From positions 1,703,656 to 1,767,655 of the forward strand of contig JADCRB010000041.1 of assembly GCA_021464245.1 (NCBI GenBank): a stretch of 64,000 nucleotides of DNA, given 5' to 3'. The notes beneath the pieces were generated by a model, which worked only from the letters and a program-made list of their open reading frames with translations, was not told the origin of the DNA and did not search any database. Origin of the DNA: Carallia brachiata (taxonomy: Eukaryota > Streptophyta > Magnoliopsida > Malpighiales > Rhizophoraceae). This document shows, in pieces, positions 781 through 40,702 of this stretch. Each line of letters starts with the position of its first letter. The first letter of the stretch is position 1. Both the position numbers and the translations under genes were made by a program.

Positions 781-839
781 CTCCAATTTAGCTGGTAGAT
801 GTCAACCTTTCCATCGGTTGATTGAAGAAGGAAGGATGT

Positions 840-3357
840 CAACTTCGAGTGGGACGAAGCTTGCAGCAAAGCCTTTGAGAGCATAAAGAAGTACCTTTCC
901 AATCCACCAGTCCTGGGGAGCTCCAATTCAAGGAAAGTCGTGATTCTCTACATTTGCAGCGCAGGAAAGATCTTTGGGAGCCTTGCTTGCACAGGAAAAC
1001 GAGCAGGGAAAGGAAGTTGCCCTGTCTTACTTGAGCAGACACCTCTAAACGGTCCGGAACTGAGTTATTCGCCCATTAAAAGACCATGTCTAGCACTGTT
1101 CTTTGCCATTGACAAGCTGAGGCACTACATGCAGGCTCACACGGTACGTCTCATTGCCAGAGCTGATCCTGTCAATATATCTTATCTAGACCAATCTTGT
1201 CAGGACGACTTGCCAATGTGGGCAGTAATCCTACAAAGCTACGACATTGTCTATGTGCCTCAAAAAGCAGTCAAAGGACAAGCTCTAGCAGACTTCCTTG
1301 CAGATCACCCTATCCCATCCGATTGGGAGTTCACAGATGATCTTCCAGATGAAGAGGTCTTTTACATTGAGGACACTGCCACATGGACGATGTTCTTTGA
1401 TGGTGCAGCAAGGCGTGATGGTGCTGGTGCCGGTATAGTGTTTGTCACTCCTCAGCGACAAATACTACCATATGCTATCATACTCGGTGAGTTATGTTCA
1501 AATAATGTTGCTGAATACCAGGCTTTGATCATTGGTCTTCAAATGGCTGTCGATATGAAGATTCCAACTATAGAAGTCCATGGAGATTCCCAGCTCGTCA
1601 TCAACCAACTTACAGGATTGTATGATGTGAAGAAAGAGGGACCTTGCACTTACCATCAACTTGCTCGACAGCTAATGGATGAATTTGAAAGCATCACCTT
1701 GGAGCATGTGCCTCGACGAGAAAACACTCAGGCAGACGCGTTGGCTAACCTGGCCACTTCTCTTGCAAAGTCAGAAATCCAGGCTACAGTTGTTGCCGTA
1801 TGCCAGAAATGGATAGTGCCACAAAAGGATGATGAAGAAACTACAGCAGCCAACACTGTATCTGTACGTCTCGCGGAGGACGAGGACTGGCGTCAACCAA
1901 TCATTGACTACCTACAACACGGGAAGCTGCCCGAAGATCGTCGTCATAAGACAGAAATTCAACGACGAGCTCCCCGCTTCATATATCTCAAGGATGCTCT
2001 GTATCGAAGGTCTTTTGATGGAGTTCTACTTCGCTGCCTAGCCAATGAAGAGGCAAAACAGGCTCTCACTGAAGCACATTCTGGTGTTTGTGGCGGACAT
2101 CAATCAGGGCCTAAGTTGCACTTCCAACTTAGAAGGATGGGATACTACTGGCCAACTATGGTACGTGATTCAATTGAGTTTGCTAAAACCTGTCAAGCTT
2201 GTCAATTTCATGCGAATTACATACATCAACCACCGGAGCCACTGCATCCAACTGTCTCATCCTGGCCCTTTGAAGCTTGGGGTCTCGACTTAGTGGGGCC
2301 CTTGCCAAAGTCATCCCTAGGTCACCTGTACATCCTCGCAGCAACCGATTACTTCTCAAATGGGCTGAAGCCATTCCACTTAGAGAGGTAAAGAAGGAGC
2401 ATGTTGCCAATTTCATCCGGACTCAGCTGATCTATCGCTATGGAGTCCCTCGATTCATCATCACTGATAATGGTAAGCAGTTCTATAACAGCTTAATTGA
2501 CAAGCTCTGCGAGAAATTCAAGTTCAAGCAGTACAAGTCATCCATGTACAATGCCCCAGCAAATGGCTTGGCTGAAGCATTCAACAAGACCTTATGCAAC
2601 CTGTTGCGAAAGGTAGTCTCTAAATCCAAAGAGATTGGCATGACAGAATTCCGGAGGCATTATGGGCGTATCGTACAACTTACCGGACTCCAACACAGGC
2701 GACGCCATACTCACTTGTCTACGGTGTCGAAGCATACTGCCGTTGGAAACACAGATTCCATCCCTGCGCATGGCTGTTCTGGAAGGACTCACACAGGAGG
2801 AGAATGCTCGCCTACGTCTGGATGAGTTAGAAGCTCTCGATGAAAGGAGGCTCGAAGCACAACAGCAACTTGAGTGCTACCAAGCCCGGCTCACCAACAC
2901 GTTCAACCGCAGGGTCCGTCTTCGATCTTTTCAAGTTGGGGATCTTGTTCTTGCAGTGCGACGGCCCATCAACATGAAGCATCGGCCTGGTGACAAGCTT
3001 ACTTCCAAATGGGACGGGCCATACTTAGTGCAGGAGGCCTACACTCACAACGCTTACATGCTGTCAGACCAAGAAGGCGTCCGAATCGGCCCAATCAATG
3101 GTAAATTTCTGAAACAAATTATGTGTAAATATGTTTGAAAAAAAAAAAAAAAAAAAAAAAAANTTGGAGATCTTGTTCTTGCAGTGCGACGGCCCATCAA
3201 CATGAAGCATCGGCCTGGTGACAAGCTTACTTCCAAATGGGACGGGCCATACTTAGTGCAGGAGGCCTACACTCACAACGCTTACATGCTGTCAGACCAA
3301 GAAGGCGTCCGAATCGGCCCAATCAATGGTAAATTTCTGAAACAATATTATGTGTAA
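840..3357 (+). pseudogene. Tat-type pol fragment: gypsy RNase H, archaeal-type RNase H, integrase
   Basis: The protein trace runs through three frames. About 840-1320 is the end of RT/RNase H, with at least two frame jumps. At 1384-1770 an RVT_3-type RNase H shows its acidic residues in FFDGAA, NNVAEYQAL, VHGDSQL and TQADALANLA. At 2070-2220 is the integrase zinc module (HSGVCGGH then CQACQ). The integrase core shows LDLVGP, ITDNGKQF and GLAEAFNKT, consistent with D,D,E. A base is missing near 2356 and further shifts fall at 2640-2790. The C-terminal tail occurs twice around the N at 3163. Only the second copy ends in the expected GKFLKQYYV, with a stop at 3355-3357. As written it cannot make integrase. 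The breaks may be mutations or sequencing errors. Confidence 0.85.
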
Positions 3358-3366
3358 ATATGTTTG
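2936..3366 (+). repeat. 195-bp direct duplication across an N base (likely assembly artefact)
   Basis: 2936-3133 and 3164-3361 are almost identical. I saw one substitution (TTGGGGATC against TTGGAGATC) and one shifted base near the end (ACAAATTATG against ACAATATTATG). They are separated by an A-run and one N at 3163. Only the second copy keeps the pol reading frame to its end. Two overlapping contigs joined without merging would look like this. Confidence 0.85.
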
Positions 3367-3546
3367 AAAAAGAAAAAAAAAATCAAAAAAAAAAAAAGAG
3401 AGAAGAAAAAAAAAAATCAAAAAATCAAAAAAAAAAAAAAAAAAAAAAAGAAGAGAAAAAAAAAATCAAAAAATCAAAAAAAAAAAAGAAGAGAAGAAAA
3501 AAAAAATAAAAAATCAAAAAATCAAAAAATCAAAAAAAAAAAAAAA

Positions 3547-3581
<35 letters not shown>
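3364..3581 (+). repeat. A-rich low-complexity tract
   Basis: Nearly pure A, interrupted by repeated AATC and AGAAGAG units. The lysine-rich open frames here are composition artefacts. It lies just after the pol stop, in the non-coding 3' spacer of the element. Confidence 0.9.
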
Positions 3582-3583
<2 letters not shown>

Positions 3584-3599
3584 CGGAAGTCCCGATCTG

Positions 3600-3900
3600 A
3601 AAGTCCAAGCGAAAATCCAAACCCAAAAATCCAAACCCAAACACTTGAGCCCAATTCAGAAAACACAAAACCTAAGTCCAAAACCCAAACACTCAACCCA
3701 AATCCAAAAATCCAAGTCTAGAAGCCCAAACACTTGAGCCCAATTCAGAAAACACAAAACCTAAGTCCAAAACCCAAACACTCAATCCAAATCCAAAAAA
3801 CCCAAACATTCAAACCCAAACATCAACCCAAATTCAATTCAAAGCCCAAAACCCAAAAAATTCCAAGTTCTAAACACAGTCCAGAAACCAGGTTCAAAAT
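3600..3900 (+). repeat. C/A-rich tandem repeat, 89-bp period
   Basis: A block containing CACTTGAGCCCAATTCAG starts at 3642 and again at 3731, followed by the same run of short CCAAAnCCAAA units. The tail to about 3900 is a more degenerate version. Tandem repeats between pol and the 3' LTR are typical of Tat elements. Confidence 0.8.
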
Positions 3901-3950
3901 CCAATCCAACTCCTGGCCCGCATGAGTATAAACTGTGAACGGCCCAAAAA

Positions 3951-3957
3951 TATAAAA
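3951..3957 (+). promoter_or_regulatory. Putative TATA box of the homeobox gene
   Basis: TATAAAA lies 95 bases before the homeobox ATG (4046). With a start about 30 bases downstream, the 5' leader would be about 65 bases. It is not part of the LTR promoter, so the cargo gene may have its own promoter. Confidence 0.5.
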
Positions 3958-4045
3958 GCGACGGAGGGTTTGAGTCTGAAACTCAGCATCAGTCTCAATC
4001 GATCTTCACCACACACCAAACCTTTGCTCCTCTACCACAAGAAAG

Positions 4046-4665
4046 ATGAAACCAGTTGCAGAACCTCAAGACAAGGGAGAAGAAAGGTCACCCCGCACAA
4101 GGTGGCAACCAACCATGGCGCAACTGCAAATTCTAGAGGAAGTCTTCCACAACAATGGAGGTATTATGCCTAATGCATCTCAGATTTACCAACTTGTCTC
4201 ACGATTGCGCCCACTCGGGGCAATCGAAGGAAAAAATGTGTTTTATTGGTTCCAGAATCGGAGAAGCAGGAAGAAACCAGCACTGAGAGCTGATTTTTCC
4301 AAAGAACAGTCTGCTGTTCCGATGGTAGATCCCACCAGTACAACTTCGCCGTCAAATGAAGCAGGTCCGAGTTCTTCCACCGCAATAGTCTCTCCACGGT
4401 ATGTTCATCAAAGCCGTAGCCCATGGGAGCATGCACGCTGGTCCTGGTGGTCTTACGGAGTCAGCCAAGGGTTCATCCCTCTAGGTACTTAAGTCTAGGA
4501 GGACATTTTCTAGCAGAAAGGAGTCATTCCGGCGAAACTTTGCCTCTCTTTCCAGAATATTCCGGCAGCATCAACCAGCCGGAAAGCGACGTCGACGTTG
4601 ACATCAACATCATCGGCCCAGACGAGGTCGAGCTTGACTTGGAGTTGCACCTCGGGCCCCGCTAG
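4046..4665 (+). CDS. WUSCHEL-related homeobox (WOX) protein inside the retrotransposon
   Basis: Two exons, 4046-4398 and 4485-4665, give 177 residues. The 86-bp intron has strong sites (CACG|GTATGT and CATCCCTCTAG) and joining it restores one frame. Residues about 17-80 are a WOX homeodomain: RWQPT at the start, ILEEVFHNNGG, then EGKNVFYWFQNRRSRKK in helix 3. The C-terminal exon carries a WUS box TLPLFP (136-141) and an EAR-like LDLELHL (168-174), both known repressor motifs of the WUS clade. WOX proteins are nuclear transcription factors of stem-cell and organ patterning. It lies between the pol stop (3357) and the polypurine tract (5591), on the element's strand, with a TATA box at 3951. 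I see no disabling change. Without the intron it looks like a frameshifted pseudogene, so transcript evidence decides. The family call is strong; activity and cargo status are inferred. Confidence 0.85.
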
Positions 4666-4685
4666 GACGGCCGACAAGATAAGGT

Positions 4686-4751
4686 GCAACGACTTCCGCA
4701 GCACACGGCAACGACTTCTGCCACACACGGTAACGACTTTCGTGACACGCG
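4686..4751 (+). repeat. Three 22-bp tandem units after the WOX stop
   Basis: Units at 4686-4707, 4708-4729 and 4730-4751 share the core GnAACGACTT and end in CACACG or CACGCG. They start 20 bases after the WOX stop codon and may be 3' untranslated sequence. Confidence 0.75.
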
Positions 4752-4832
4752 TCAGCCGCTGCCTCTTTTGTCTCTTATGCAGGAAAGGGACGTGGATGGC
4801 CCTATCCGATTCTGCATACCTTTTTGACTTTT

Positions 4833-4871
<39 letters not shown>

Positions 4872-5590
4872 TTATTATTTGTATATATATCCTGCATGCC
4901 CGAGTCGTAATATTCACCCCTCAGCTCTTCTTTCTCAAAAAAAATGGCTAGTCTCTACTTGTCTCAGGAAGTTCTTCGATCAAGAAGTTGGAGGCGCACG
5001 AGCTAAGAAAAGAAGGAGTAGTCTTCTTCGAGGGATCCCTAAAAGCCCTCGAAACTCAATCTCCAACGCCATCGGTGTCATGGAGTTCCAACTACTCTCC
5101 TTAGTTCACATCTACCACAGAGGGATGAGAAGCTGCAATTATCCTAATCTTTCTTTGGATGCAGCGACGTACAGGGAAGTTCCAACTACTCTCCTTACGT
5201 CGAAGCAGACTTGGAAATCATCACTACAGTCAGTCTCTCTGTGAGCCGGTCTTGAAGTTCCAAGGTCCTGAGCCTTTCTCTTGGGGAGGTTGAAGTTCTT
5301 TGCCTACTGGATCATCCTCACCAGAGCTCTGGAACTTTAAGAGATATAAAAAATCCTTTGCGGGCTATGGAAGCTCGAACGCACCTGGAACCAGAATATC
5401 AATTTTTATATTGGCTGGGGTGCTAACTTTCTCAAGATCGTATCGGGTTCCTATTGTGATCCAACAACAGCAGCATGGTCAAAGATAGAAGACTCCAAGA
5501 TTCAATGTTCATCAGGACGTTTCCAAGTTTCAAACTGGACTTCAAGACTCGGTGCGGATCACGTCTGCAAAGTTCTTCCTTACCGACCCC
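4752..5590 (+). other. Non-coding 3' spacer of the Tat element
   Basis: Contains an A-run (4838-4867) and two copies of AGTTCCAACTACTCTCCTTA (near 5085 and 5178). Short open frames show no recognisable domain. Confidence 0.6.
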
Positions 5591-5605
5591 TGAAGTGGGG
5601 GCATT
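5591..5605 (+). other. Polypurine tract before the 3' LTR
   Basis: TGAAGTGGGGGCATT directly precedes TGTAAACA. A G-rich purine run abutting a TG start is the standard plus-strand priming site of LTR retrotransposons. It ties the upstream spacer, and so the WOX gene, to this LTR. Confidence 0.75.
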
Positions 5606-33991: not shown

Positions 33992-34751
33992 TCCAAAAGA
34001 TAATTTGTCACCCAGTTTGATAGCTTCAATGAGAAATGCAAGATGACAAAAACAATGGATTAATCTGAATAAACGCAAGAATAACAATTTAAAAAAAAAA
34101 AAAAAAGAAATCTTAGATGATTTGGAAATCCCCCATTACTCTAAATGAACGTCGTCTCTGAAACCAGCATCATCATGCAACGCAGACATCATTTTTTTTT
34201 TTCTTCTTTTGAGCAAACGCAGACATCAATCTTATTAAATGGAAGTTTTGACATTGACCCCAAGTTTCATGATTTTCAATCCGGTGTAATCTGAAAAGAG
34301 ATGCGAGTTCGACCACCTAAAGAAGAGAGAAGAATAAGTTGAGTTTCCTGACCTGCAAGATAAAATACGGCATAGAGTGTTGAGATGAGATTCAGTGTTA
34401 ATACTTTAATAATTAAATCAGCAATAAATATAATGACGAGAGATCAAAGTATATAGAATAGATATCATGTCATTATTTTAAAAATAATGTATTTTTGAGA
34501 TATTTATATATAGTTTAATGGGCTTTTATTGGATTAGTAGATAGTTGTACTGAAAGGCAACGTATCTCATTTAATTGGTCGGACCTAAGATCTCGAGTGA
34601 TGACATGGAGTCTAGGGTCGGACCTGAGATTTTCATGAATCTGCTCTTCTTGTGAGGTGAGCTTTGACTTTATAGTCTTGGGACTATGCTTAATCTTTAT
34701 CAATTTTTAATCTTACATTTAATTCTCGCGCCCATGCAATAAAACTCATAC
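33992..34751. other. AT-rich intergenic DNA
   Basis: No gene recognised. Ends at the target site of the LINE insertion. Confidence 0.55.
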
Positions 34752-34800
34752 AAGAATGCTTGAATTGCAAGGAAAACCTAGTAACTTTTTTGACGGCGAC

Positions 34801-36522
34801 ATGTCCACCTCGGCGGCCAAGTCCTCAGAAGAAGAAGATCAACTGGAGAGGAGCAACAAAAAGGTAAAATTTTCAACGCCCCATGGTCATGCAGCAAACT
34901 CTCAGGCTGAGGGGTTTGTTGAGGGACGGAAAAGGATCTCGTACAGGGATGCGATCCTGTTCTCGAACGATTCGCAGGGAGGGCCTGAAGACACTGATCT
35001 CCCAATGGAACAAGATGATGAGGAGTTCCCACTTGAAGAGGAATATGAGCATGGAGAGGAGGATTGTCCGGATGTCATATTTTCAGCTCCAAAAAAGGGC
35101 ATGTTTCGAGAACCATGGAGACGTACTCTGATAGTGAAACTACTGGGGCGATCGATTGGGTATATTTTCCTCCAACGCAGATTGAATCAATTGTGGTCCC
35201 CTTCTGGCTTGATTCAGCTCATTGACCTTGGCAATGACTTTTTCCTAGTCAAGTTTGAAGTCCCACGGGACTATGATTATGTTCTTCACAATGGCCCTTG
35301 GGTTGTGGCAGGACACTACCTAACAGTTCGACGCTGGAGAGCGGATTTTGACCCGGATGAAGCAGGTATCACTAGTGTTGCTGCTTGGATTCGCCTTCCT
35401 CGGTTGCCTGTGGAGTACTACCATCCAGAGGCATTGTGGGAAATAGGGAATAAGGTTGGTCGCACTATCAGAGTTGATCATCTAACTGAAGAAGTGGCAC
35501 GAGGTAATTATGCAAGACTTTGTGTGGAAATAAATTTGTCCCGCCCTCTGATTACTCGTTACAGACTAGGAGGGAAGGTCCGTCGGATAGAGTATGAAGG
35601 GATTCATTTGGTCTGCTTTCAATGTGGATGCTATGGCCATAAAACGGGAGCCTGTGTTCAGAATAAGGAGCCCGGAGATGGGGAAGTTCCACCAACAGCT
35701 CCTGGCTCATCTAAAAAGCCAGAGGAAGAAGCCCCATATGGTCCGTGGATGCTAGTGCAAAGGCCTAGGCGAAAGAATAATAGTGCAAAAGCACGTGTTT
35801 CTGGAGAAAATTATTCTAAAGAAGTTGCTGGAAACGCTTTTAATGATCAGGGGGGGTCTCGTTTTTCAGCATTAGTTCCGGTGGAGAATGGTGAGCAAGA
35901 AAATCCAACGGCGGCAGCCGCAACGATGGAGATAGGCAATGGCTCTTCGCTGCCAACTCGCCGAGCAGATTCCCGACGAGATTCCAAGCCCATAGCTACA
36001 CGTGGCTCAAGGTCACAGGGTATTGCTAAGGGGAAAAATCAGGCAGAGAAGCCACAGACTGCGGGCGAGGCTGACGCCATTGATGCGCCTCAAACTCAGG
36101 ACCGTGATCCTAGTGTTTCCCAATTAAATGCTAATAGGGATAGGAACCCTAAGATTTCGGCAACTAGTATCTTACGAGTTTCACATCCTACAGACTCCCT
36201 TCAATCCCAAAAGTCGTTTGAATCAATGGTTCCTATGGAAGTCCAAAAAGGGGTTTCTATTGGGCCTCCTGCCAGGCTCAAAATTGTCAGCTCCTCGGAG
36301 GTACCCCCCTCTCCCGATGGACCGCTCAACACTGGAGAAGCATCAATTTTCTTGGGTTATGGGCGCAATGAAAATGCAAAGCCCCCTGACCCTATAGCAG
36401 CCATGGACTGTGAAGGATTGGAGTCTGGAGGCGTGGGCTTGGAATCTCAAGTTCAAGAGACTCCTTTGTTGATGGAAACAATTATGTGTCCTCCAGTAGG
36501 TGAGCTACATACGTCGCACTAG
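34801..36522 (+). CDS. LINE ORF1: DUF4283 and zinc-knuckle nucleic-acid-binding protein
   Basis: From the ATG at 34801 it has 573 residues. About 100-260 is a DUF4283-type domain (WSPSGLIQLIDLGNDFFLVKF, then VLHNGPWVVAGHYLTVRRW). A CX2CX4HX4C zinc knuckle, CFQCGCYGHKTGAC, follows near 271-284. The rest is hydrophilic and Ser/Pro-rich. ORF1 proteins of plant L1 elements coat the LINE RNA. The open frame extends up to an ATG at 34756, but that codon lies in the target-site duplication and so is host DNA; 34801 is the first ATG inside the element. ORF2 starts 41 bases after the stop. No frameshift was seen. Confidence 0.88.
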   Translation: MSTSAAKSSEEEDQLERSNKKVKFSTPHGHAANSQAEGFVEGRKRISYRDAILFSNDSQGGPEDTDLPMEQDDEEFPLEEEYEHGEEDCPDVIFSAPKKGMFREPWRRTLIVKLLGRSIGYIFLQRRLNQLWSPSGLIQLIDLGNDFFLVKFEVPRDYDYVLHNGPWVVAGHYLTVRRWRADFDPDEAGITSVAAWIRLPRLPVEYYHPEALWEIGNKVGRTIRVDHLTEEVARGNYARLCVEINLSRPLITRYRLGGKVRRIEYEGIHLVCFQCGCYGHKTGACVQNKEPGDGEVPPTAPGSSKKPEEEAPYGPWMLVQRPRRKNNSAKARVSGENYSKEVAGNAFNDQGGSRFSALVPVENGEQENPTAAAATMEIGNGSSLPTRRADSRRDSKPIATRGSRSQGIAKGKNQAEKPQTAGEADAIDAPQTQDRDPSVSQLNANRDRNPKISATSILRVSHPTDSLQSQKSFESMVPMEVQKGVSIGPPARLKIVSSSEVPPSPDGPLNTGEASIFLGYGRNENAKPPDPIAAMDCEGLESGGVGLESQVQETPLLMETIMCPPVGELHTSH

Positions 36523-36562
36523 AGAGTGCAGGTTCTTAACATATACTTAATTGGTTTTATTA

Positions 36563-39500
36563 ATGTCTGAACTAAACATTTTTGTGTGGAATTGCTTTGG
36601 AGCTGCTAAAGCTAGCTTCAAAAGGACACTAAAGCTATTTATCCATAAGCATAAACCTGCTATTGTTGTTCTTGTTGAGCCAAGGCTTAGTGGCGCTCGT
36701 GCAGATAAAGTGTGCAAGAGTATTGGCTATTCTGGAATGGTTAAAGAAGATGCAGATGGCTTCAATGGTGGAATTTGGGTGTTATGGGACAATACTCTCC
36801 TAGATATTTCAGTTAAAAGGAGAAGTGACCAATTTCTTCACCTTTGTGTGCAAGAACATGGTCGTGAACCTTGGCTTTTTACTGCTATTTATGCCAAGCC
36901 ATACGCAGAAAATAAAAAGAGATTATGGGTTGATTTAGCTGACATCCACTCACATGTCTCAGAACCTTGGCTCGTTGCTGGGGATTTTAATGCAGTTTGC
37001 TCACCGGAAGAGAAAAGAGGAGGGAGAGACCTAGCCCAGTACTAGTGGACTAAATTTTCTAGCTGGATAACTAACTTGGCACTTATTGATTTGGGATTTA
37101 TTGGGTCTCGCTTCACATGGGCTCGTGGTAAAACGCCGCAGACCAGAGTCCTTTGTAGGCTGGACCGTGCCCTCAGTAACCTTTCATGGCGCCTAAGATG
37201 GCCTGAAGCTTTAGTATGGCACCTCCCCAGAGTTAGCTCAGACCACTGCCCACTCCTTCTAAAGCTCTTTGGCAACCCAATCAAAGAACAACAAAGAAAG
37301 CCATTCCGGTTCCAAGGAGCTTGGCTATTGCACAAGGACTTTTTTAAGTTGGTAGAAAATTCTTGGAAACGGAATACATATTTACCAGATTCACTATCAG
37401 AGCTGTCTAGAGTTCTTGCAGAGTGGAACAAGAATGAATTCGACCATATAGAACGACGGAAGCAACGACTATTAAATAGAATTCGTGGGTGTCAAATATC
37501 TATGGATTCCAACTGTACACCGGGCCTCTTTGCACTGGAACGTAGACTTCAAAAGCAACTGGATTTGGTGTTGGAGCAAGAACAGATTTTTTGGTATCAA
37601 AAATCCCGTGCACAATGGATTGTAGATGGCGATCGCAACACACGTTTTTTCCATTCTACGACCATTGTGAGACGAAAAAGGAACAGGATTGAAGCTCTTC
37701 GCAATGAACAAGGATCTTGGGTGTTAGATGATGAGGAACTAAAGGAACTAGCGATCGATTTTTTTTCCACCCTGTATACATCGGAAGAAATAGGTACAGC
37801 AGTGCCAGCTTTGCCTGCAAACTTTCAGGTACTCTCGGCAGCAAACATGGACAGACTAAATGCTCCGTTTACTGTAGATGAGGTAAAACAAGCACTTTTT
37901 GATATGCAACCTCTCAAAGCACCCGGGATTGATGGCTTCCATGCCCTATTCTATCAAAAGTTTTGGCATATAGTTGGGGGGTCACTCACAAATTTTATAC
38001 TTAGGATACTACATGGGCAGTCTATCCCTCCAGAGCTAAATAAAACTCTTCTGGTTTTGATCCCTAAACAGTGTTGTCCTGAAAGGATACTGGATTATCG
38101 ACCCATCAGTTTATGTAACGTCAGCTATAAGATAATTACAAAGACCATTGTTAATCGCTTGAAAGATTTCCTACCACAATGGGTTGCCCCAACACAGACC
38201 AGTTTTGTCCCAGGTCGTCAGATCATTGATAATATTGTTATCCTCCAAGGAGTCCTTCATTCTTTCTGTTTTTTGAAAGGTAAGAAGGGCTACATGATCT
38301 TTAAACTGGACTTGGAGAAGGCTTATGATAGACTCGAGTGGAGTTTTGTGAGGGATACTCTGGTTCATTTAGCTCTACCCAGTTCTTGGATCAATCTTAT
38401 TATGGATTGTATATCTTCTGTGTCGATGAGCATCCTTTGGAATGGAGGAACAAGACAACAATTTAAGACTTCGAGAAGGCTACGCCAAGGTGACCCTCTT
38501 TCTCCATATTTGTTTGTTCTCTGTTTGGAGCGTTTGGGGCATATAATTGAGGAACAGGTTGGTTTGGGAATATGGAAGCCTTGCTTCTTATCTAAAAATG
38601 GTCCCGACTTGTCCCACCTTTTTTTCGCTGATGACTGTATATTGCTCTCAGAGGCATCTAGTTCGCAAGTAGCAGTGATTAGACGGTGTTTGGAGATGTT
38701 CTGTTCAGCCTCTGGCCAAAGAGTTAGCTTCCCCAAGTCTAAAATGTTCGTCTCTCCCAATATACAGAGGCACGAAGCTAGGAGCCTAAGCCAACAAGCA
38801 GGCATTGCACTCACAGATAATCTTGGTCGATACCTGGGCATGCCAACTATTAATGGCAGGGTCTCAGCTTCTCTATATAAGGATATTGTAGAGCGGGTTC
38901 AAAATAAATTGGCAGGTTGGAAGGCTCAACAACTTTCCTTTGCAGGTCGCTTGACCCTTGTCAAGTCGGTAGCCTCAGCAATCCCAACATATGTGATGCA
39001 ATCGGCAATGCTTCCTGTATCTACTTGCAATCACCTGGATAAATGCTATCGGGACTTTCTATGGGGTGATAATGATCAAAGTAAAAGGCAGCACTTGGTA
39101 AATTGGCAGGTTGTGTGCAGATCAAAGGAAAGTGGTGGCTTGGGTGTGCGAAGCACAAAAGTTTTTAACCAGGCGCTCCTGTCAAAGTTGAATTGGCGTC
39201 TTATTACTGAGTCAGAGAGCTTATGGTCCAGAGTGATCAAAGGAAAATACTGTAAAAATAGCGACACGGCCATTAAGCATAAAAAAGTAGCATCCCACAC
39301 ATGGCGAAGTATGGTTAAAGCCCAACCGCTGCTAGAGAAAGAATGTCAATGGCGTGTCGGAGATGGTAGCTCAGTCTTGTTTTGGCAGGACAGATGGCTA
39401 ATTAAGGACCCACTTTCTGTGTATACAGTTTCACCATTGGATGAGGAGGAACTGAATGCCTCTGTCCATGATTATTGGATCAACGATGAGGGATGGAATT

Positions 39501-40702
39501 ATCAAAAGCTTCGGACCTGGTTGCCTAAGCATATCCTCGACATCCTATCCTCTCAAGTGTTGTATGTAGGCATTAACAATGTGGACAAGTTGCGATGGGG
39601 TTCTACTCCAGACGGAAAGTTCTCTGCTCGAGCAGCTTATGTGGCACTTTCTAGAGATATGAATAATGCCCCGAGTGCCACCTGTTGGCAACCACATTTT
39701 CATTTATTATGGAAGCTCAAAGTTCCAGAGAAAATAAGATGTTTTATATGGCAATTAGCCCATGGCCGCTTAATGACTAATGTTGAAAGAACAAGAAGGG
39801 GTCTAGCTACTTCGAGTGCTTGTAGCTTATATGGAGAATATGATGAATCCCTTCTACATCTCCTACGGGATTGCAGGAAAGTGGCAGGTCTATGGTGCTC
39901 CTTTATAAGTAGTCCACATAGGGGCAGGTTTTTCCATCTCCAATTTGAGCAATGGCTGCTATTGAATTTGCATGGGGAGTTCAAATCCACAAAGTTCGAA
40001 GGTTGGCCAGAGTTGTTCGCTACCTTTTGCTGGGAAGTGTGGAAGTGGAGAAATGAATTTGTGTTTTCCGGGAACTCTTCACAATCATACTCTAGTAGTT
40101 TTATTCAACAGCAATGCTGTTTGTATCTGCAAGCTAACAGCAGTGAGGATGTCACTTGTGCTATCCCAAAAAGGACCACCTGTCTAGTGAGCTGGAACCC
40201 TCCTCATGGTGATTGGTGTAAGCTTAATACTGACGGAGCATCTAGAGGAAATCCTGGGGAGGCTTGCGCTGGAGGTGTGATTCGAGACAGCAATGGAATA
40301 TGGGTGGCGGGTTTTGCACGAAATATTGGGGTATGTACTGCTTTTGCAGCTGAACTTTGGGCAATTTTAACAGGGCTACAGCTAGCATGGGAATCTGGCC
40401 TCCGAAAGTTATATTTGGAAGTTGACTCCACACTGACTTTGCAAAGCATTCATAATGGTGTCCCCGATTCACATCAATATGCCAATTTGGTTCGCCTGTG
40501 CCAAGATTGGCTATCACGAGACTGGATTATTAAGGCTCAACATATATTCCGAGAAGGCAATGCAGTAGCAGATGGGCTAGCCAACCATGCTTTTTCTTTG
40601 GCTAGAGGGCTTCATATCCTTCCGAATCCCCCAAGGCAGATACAACAATTGCTCAGTCAAGATGCTATTGGGGTCGCCTGGCCTCGAATGATCTCATTGT
40701 AG
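36563..40702 (+). pseudogene. LINE ORF2: endonuclease, reverse transcriptase, RNase H; one stop codon
   Basis: One frame of 1,379 codons is broken only by TAG at 37043-37045. Order: APE-type endonuclease (LNIFVWNCFGAAK, VAGDFNAV, then SSDHCPLLL; about 1-245), reverse transcriptase with FFADDC near 687, a zf-RVT region near 1045-1110 whose cysteine pattern is degraded (CSLYGEYDESLLHLLRDC), and an RVT_3 RNase H near 1220-1345 (NTDGASRGNPG, AELWAIL, EVDSTL, GNAVADGLAN). The stop falls inside the endonuclease, after the VAGDFNAV motif. The protein nicks target DNA and copies the LINE RNA. A single nonsense change in so long a frame indicates recent inactivation, or one base error. Confidence 0.92.

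Follow-up and report, generated by a model that had tools for sequence, protein, structure and literature searches.

Probable capture of a WUSCHEL-clade homeobox gene by a Tat retrotransposon family of Carallia brachiata

The retrotransposons Retand, Grande, RIRE2 and Ogre possess a second RNase H and an extra gene between pol and the 3′ long terminal repeat (LTR). The same arrangement is found in the element described here, part of which lies in a window of 64,000 nt (the whole stretch of DNA that was analysed; positions 1703656-1767655 of contig JADCRB010000041.1 of Carallia brachiata), taken from a genome of 337.5 Mb with flowering-plant genes. The extra gene of this element is a WUSCHEL-like homeobox (WOX) gene. 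It is in sense orientation, has a recognisable host origin and encodes a homeodomain factor, whereas gene23 of Grande is antisense; an own promoter has been reported for gene23 in the accessible portions of two studies (PMC7264820; PMC11963269). For 63 Retand clusters, the available part of the second study reports no sense frame encoding a known domain in the region between pol and the 3′ LTR (PMC11963269).

Host-type domains are not foreign to Gypsy elements. The available text of a screen of 121 angiosperm genomes describes an AlkB-type RNA demethylase in Phalaenopsis, YgdH/LONELY GUY in Citrus and B3 in Aegilops tauschii, and states that LONELY GUY proteins regulate cytokinin activity; a homeodomain is not named in its main text (PMC9289625). 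These families share with the element here a host-type domain fixed in a multi-copy family. The words ‘homeo’, ‘WUS’ and ‘WOX’ are likewise absent from the main text of a 2026 review of plant gene capture, and the literature searched, which was mostly non-subscription, yielded no LTR retrotransposon described as carrying a homeodomain. Hence a host-type gene in a Gypsy family is known, and a homeodomain factor in an LTR retrotransposon is new among the literature searched. Cytokinin and LONELY GUY are neighbours of WUS in meristem control; by this link meristem control is touched by the YgdH elements of Citrus as well as by the WUS-type gene here, which is possibly a pattern.

The best explanation overall, to which we assign a probability of about 0.8, is that a Tat family captured a WUSCHEL-clade gene and carries it as an accessory gene. 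That the captured WUS-type gene is mobile is very probable. When the host genome was searched with the Pfam homeodomain, 150 of 1,348 candidates were scored; on the basis of score and span, at least 101 of these homeodomains, on 53 contigs, were assigned to the element. Since the window's own copy is outside the 150, the true copy number exceeds 101. The sequences of 47 of the 101 were inspected (picks of 20, 7 and 20) and all 47 contain the element-type WOX, while the remaining 54 were assigned by score and span alone. Four loci in the same score range (L038, L039, L047 and L048) are host WOX genes and were excluded from the count.

Twenty copies, selected mostly for long open frames, were examined together with 6.8-10 kb of their surroundings. 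In all of them Tat pol lies 5′ of WOX on the same strand and LTR sequence lies 3′ of it. Locus L021, one of the two copies in which a target duplication could be checked, is a short insertion with two LTRs (each running from TGTAAA to TTTACA) and a perfect 5-bp CTCTA repeat outside them; its interior holds parts of pol and an intact WOX frame. LTRs of the form TG...CA and a target duplication of mostly 5 bp are features of the Tat clade. Because pol and LTR flank WOX in 20/20 copies and L021 has a target duplication, the gene, as judged from sequence, moves together with the element. WOX and pol distances correlate across copies (Mantel rho 0.74, 0/999). The two LTRs differ by 17 mismatches over 792 aligned columns in L021 and by 8 over 941 in another copy, C86, which at a substitution rate of 1.3e-8 per site and year corresponds to insertion ages of roughly 0.85 and 0.3 million years, respectively. 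The earlier note on this DNA had proposed capture and mobility and had named as a check a search for other family copies with Tat pol on the left of WOX and the LTR on the right; such copies were found in 20 of 20 cases, and with the 5-bp duplication of L021 the proposal is well supported.

The LTRs are not uniform. As the first 250-270 LTR bases of eight copies (L011, L012, L015, L021, L024, L025, L027 and L028) fail to match the window LTR, the family has at least two U3 types. In L026 (2494-2818) the LTR pieces 3′ of WOX are inverted, by rearrangement or misassembly. In L009 a distance of about 1.5 kb separates two WOX copies (264-985 and 2423-3047), both with broken frames and with an LTR piece between them, a nested or tandem insertion.

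The copy in the window has the following features:
781-3138, + strand: 3′ part of Tat pol with RNase H, additional RNase H (RVT_3) and integrase, from Pfam; its left side is cut by an assembly gap
3164-3366, + strand: second copy of the pol tail after a single N at 3163, identical to the first copy at 204/206 positions
3367-3832, + strand: A-rich and CCCAAA-repeat spacer, recognised by its tandem repeats
3936-3985, + strand: promoter-like core with the TATA box at 3951, 95 bases 5′ of the ATG; TATAAA occurs in 48/48 loci, and the core has the fewest mismatches of seven zones
4046-4492, + strand: part of the WOX reading frame that holds the homeodomain, 148 aa in the window copy, from translation, Pfam and a match to 6ry3
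4094-4291, + strand: homeodomain of 66 aa, the length of that of WUS, from Pfam and comparison with WUS
4495-4665, + strand: C-terminal WOX part, in a different frame in the window copy and in the same frame as the homeodomain in intact copies
4537-4554, + strand: WUS box TLPLFP, from translation
4633-4653, + strand: EAR-like LDLELHL, from translation
5592-5605, + strand: polypurine stretch 5′ of the 3′ LTR, identical in L010 and L022
5606-6544, + strand: 3′ LTR of 939 bp, TGTAAA to TTACA

The order of pol, spacer repeats, WOX, polypurine tract and LTR on one strand, as given in the earlier note, is thus borne out. The same note had called the WOX frame intact, which does not hold for this copy: the homeodomain frame hits a stop after 148 aa. 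Homeodomain, WUS box and EAR-like end are all present as it had said, the latter two being readable only in another frame. Compared with the young copy L010 over 2,358 bases of pol, the window copy shows 3 mismatches and 18 gap openings; because indels so outnumber substitutions, assembly indel errors may be the cause of its broken frames. The 5′ end is missing from the window copy. The isolated N's at positions 780 and 3163 resemble assembly joins, and the pol tail of about 205 bases on either side of the latter is probably an assembly overlap rather than biology. For positions 3590-3890, in the spacer region, the best alignment in 20 copies averages 83% identity, with identical bases amounting to 61% of the stretch.

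The carrier is best seen in L010, whose pol frame of 1,003 aa contains reverse transcriptase, RT_RNaseH (273-374), RVT_3 (426-545) and integrase (643-811) in this order. A second RNase H between RNase H and integrase characterises the Tat branch in angiosperms according to the accessible part of the source (PMC6317226), and the element is classified as a member of the Tat clade of Ty3/gypsy (Ogre/Retand branch). Its pol is under strong constraint: among 21 copies the shared variants number 3 nonsynonymous to 35 synonymous (omega ~0.03), and the single ones 28 to 42. L009 and L027 carry, 5′ of pol, a gag above the Pfam cut-off. No gag was recognised in those frames of L029/L010 and L016 that were tested, L025 being similar by eye, and the form without gag is probably a shorter, dependent one. 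For the aspartic protease there are only matches below the cut-off, in L009 and L020. The WOX gene is identical between L020 and L010, the latter being without gag. An antisense Transposase_28 frame between pol and the 3′ LTR is present in 97% of Retand clusters in the available part of the published survey, two clusters being without it (PMC11963269). Three antisense window frames gave no Pfam match, hence no Transposase_28, and L010 has no antisense frame of at least 120 aa. Relatives of pol are widespread, with identities up to 77% among the 120 matches listed of 5,899, a list that gives no genomic context.

The homeodomain in the window is recognised by PF00046 (E 1.1e-12) and matches the WUSCHEL chain 6ry3 (E 1.4e-18). 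In an intact copy the WUS box TLPLFP and LDLELHL stand in one frame. The element protein has in common with WUSCHEL a 66-residue homeodomain, the base-contact residues, the EAR-like end and the ETLPLFP box, which both host WUS genes also read; the extra homeodomain residue is shared by the element and WUS only, among the rows compared. It differs from WUSCHEL in that only about half of the homeodomain residues are identical (33/66 and 32/66 against the two host WUS homeodomains), in an arginine at WUS position 36 and in being intronless, whereas both host WUS genes have introns. The best database relatives are WUS proteins, none above 53% identity among the 120 matches listed of 419, in a search that repeat-masked proteomes would escape. 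The donor would be a WUSCHEL-clade gene, most likely WUS itself. The host has two WUS paralogues (L038, L039, L069 and L070), in one of which LELSL, LELTL or LELRL was not found near the end of the frame. Among the proteins compared, WUS exon 1 is closest to Turnera for one paralogue and to Gossypium for the other, and one gene of the window has its best hit in Rhizophora mucronata (77%), which suggests a plant of the Malpighiales.

The region 5′ of the gene resembles a promoter. In the second-pick copies, the stretch from 110 to 60 bases 5′ of the ATG carries 1.7% mismatches per site, the lowest of seven zones, compared with 11.7% in the spacer (18/20 copies), 4.9, 8.0 and 4.2% in the gene parts and 5.8% in the stretch 3′ of the gene. 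Among the first 20 copies, identity is 98.5% in the TATA stretch, 98.3% in the integrase, 94.4% in the LTR and 95.4-96.1% in the stretches behind WOX. Constraint on the TATA region is therefore supported, though not settled, and a gene with its own promoter and weak protein constraint would be the simplest reading. In the form without gag, repeated CGCACGAGTATAAAAGG-type units are found 5′ of pol (L029, 8290-8700; L016, 7997-8275); since they resemble the CGCATGAGTATAAA stretch 5′ of WOX, a promoter-like unit may have been duplicated inside the element.

An intact WOX frame is present in 22/42 fully read copies, a set biased because the first 20 loci had been chosen for their open frames, which span 206-229 aa and in one case 350; of the second pick, drawn from the remainder of the list, 3/20 are intact. 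In a tree of the 42 copies there are three groups, young (22 copies), middle and older (4 copies), and intact frames occur both in the young group and in the middle group 6-9% away (L060, L028 and L050). Among 49 copies, variants seen once number 117 nonsynonymous to 41 synonymous, fitting neutrality (expected ratio 2.88), and those common to at least three copies number 51 to 31 (omega 0.57, p 0.016 versus expectation). The wrong reading frames give 1.06 and 1.62, so that shared changes are not poorer in nonsynonymous ones there. Indels are multiples of three in 3/3 cases shared by at least three copies, in 1/4 found in two copies and in 7/40 single ones. Purifying selection on the WOX protein would thus be weak, supported and not settled.

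What might such a gene do for the element? We propose that a Tat Ty3/gypsy element took up a WUSCHEL-clade mRNA once, in spliced form because the element WOX is intronless, and that the family would since have kept WOX, in sense orientation and with a TATA promoter of its own, as an accessory gene located between pol and the 3′ LTR during at least two rounds of spread. The protein would enter the nucleus and bind TGAA-type sites, and the arginine at WUS position 36 would let it bind TAAT-type sites better than WUS does. WUS recruits co-repressors, and the WUS box together with the EAR-like end would allow the element protein to recruit those of the TOPLESS type; the kept DNA contacts and repressor motifs point to a nuclear repressor. 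An effect via the host cell, on division, stem-cell state or defence, is favoured. We consider a protein that benefits the element slightly the better bet. How it would help is a tentative suggestion: cells would be kept dividing or meristem-like, or differentiation and defence would be damped in the cells that form the germ line. The same caution applies to the fuller picture of an element that might express, from its own promoter, a WUSCHEL-type repressor with altered DNA recognition and thereby hold cells in a state favouring copying and germ-line passage, which we regard as conceivable and somewhat doubtful.

A more direct benefit, the switching-on of its own LTR by the WOX protein, is considered unlikely, as the LTR shows no enrichment of WUS-type sites. 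TTAATGG, TGAATGAA and TCACGTGA are absent from the window LTR, and TTAATSS is at the expectation of single-base shuffles.

The strongest competitor to a useful protein is an accidental capture with no function for the element, in which frames are intact merely because the youngest copies are recent. Selection is weak and the tests disagree (p 0.016, 0.074 and 0.39), few frames of the second pick are intact, and the mismatch counts of the two LTR pairs mark recent insertions; all of this makes a functionless gene a real possibility, if not the one we prefer. It accounts less well for the intact frames in the middle group, for shared indels that keep the frame more often than single ones, for a TATA core with fewer mismatches than its surroundings, and for a deficit of nonsynonymous changes among the shared ones that is seen in the real frame and not in the wrong frames. 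A second serious rival, which we hold to be rather unlikely, takes the protein as an imitation of WUS in competition with the host's own WUS or with its partners; it might, for instance, lift the barrier linked to WUS that keeps invaders out of the shoot stem cells. According to the available part of one report, which cites a 2020 paper in Science, WUS takes part in excluding RNA viruses from stem cells (PMC10589665), and the retention of DNA-contact residues and repressor motifs in a homeodomain that has diverged to about 50% identity would suit a competitor. Those same retained repressor motifs fit an active repressor better.

Two further explanations carry little weight. The segment might act as an RNA that silences host WUS, and not as a protein, an idea akin to the regulatory RNA of the earlier note and compatible with a promoter-like region of few mismatches. 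It fares badly as a silencer of the two WUS genes in the host, the longest exact match to either being 11 nt, and shared indels that keep the frame speak for a protein; we regard it as very improbable. Still less credible, to the point of being negligible, is a chance insertion of Tat next to a resident host WOX gene. The window copy taken alone would be compatible with it, whereas pol is found 5′ of WOX in all 20 copies at different places and L021 has its target duplication outside its LTRs.

The reading that we prefer, a captured WUSCHEL-clade gene kept by a Tat family for the use of its protein, also has to face a number of unfavourable observations. In C86 the two LTRs are 98.4% alike and the flanks hold no matching target duplication; its LTR pair may be a recombinant. 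The mean divergence of WOX (0.0215) exceeds that of pol (0.0142), so that WOX is faster, and in 21 copies pol is far more constrained. For the protein, the comparison of shared with single variants gives p 0.074 only, 21 copies alone give p 0.39, shared variants are not independent, and two of the three shared indels begin at the same site. The copies were found through the homeodomain, which biases its conservation upward. As to the promoter-like region, the TATA core was delimited after its location was known, the 150 bases 5′ of the ATG as a whole have 3.2% mismatches, and the homeodomain of the first 20 copies (99.6%) is above the TATA stretch in identity. In the window LTR, TGAA is not clearly enriched (15 versus 10.9, with 63/500 shuffles as high), and TAAT is depleted (9 versus 19.2 in shuffles). 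The element has R and K in place of K92 and R96, which make minor phosphate contacts in WUS. Finally, the donor tree places the element on a long branch, with an AU p of 0.19 for element and WUS and of 0.10-0.48 for five other pairings, and the donor is not fixed by it.

Here at least two rounds of spread have taken a developmental transcription factor, together with a promoter-like region, into about a hundred insertions. Because the element carries a WUSCHEL-like gene at so many places, a genomic parasite may be using a stem-cell switch for its own ends. Should the protein be active, a retroelement would be acting on host cell fate, its copies would amount to a collection of naturally altered WUS proteins, and the route of plant elements into the germ line would become testable. 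Oncogene-carrying retroviruses are retroelements with a spliced host growth regulator, and the element, if the reading is true, would be a plant counterpart of retroviruses with growth-control genes. Unlike a one-off defective virus, it kept its gene through repeated spread, in a family that includes gag-bearing copies. At a practical level, element copies can make the number of WOX genes in such a genome look too high.

Elsewhere in the window, positions 34723-40702 hold frames of 599 and 1218 aa that are LINE-like by eye, with a zinc-knuckle ORF1 and a reverse transcriptase ORF2.
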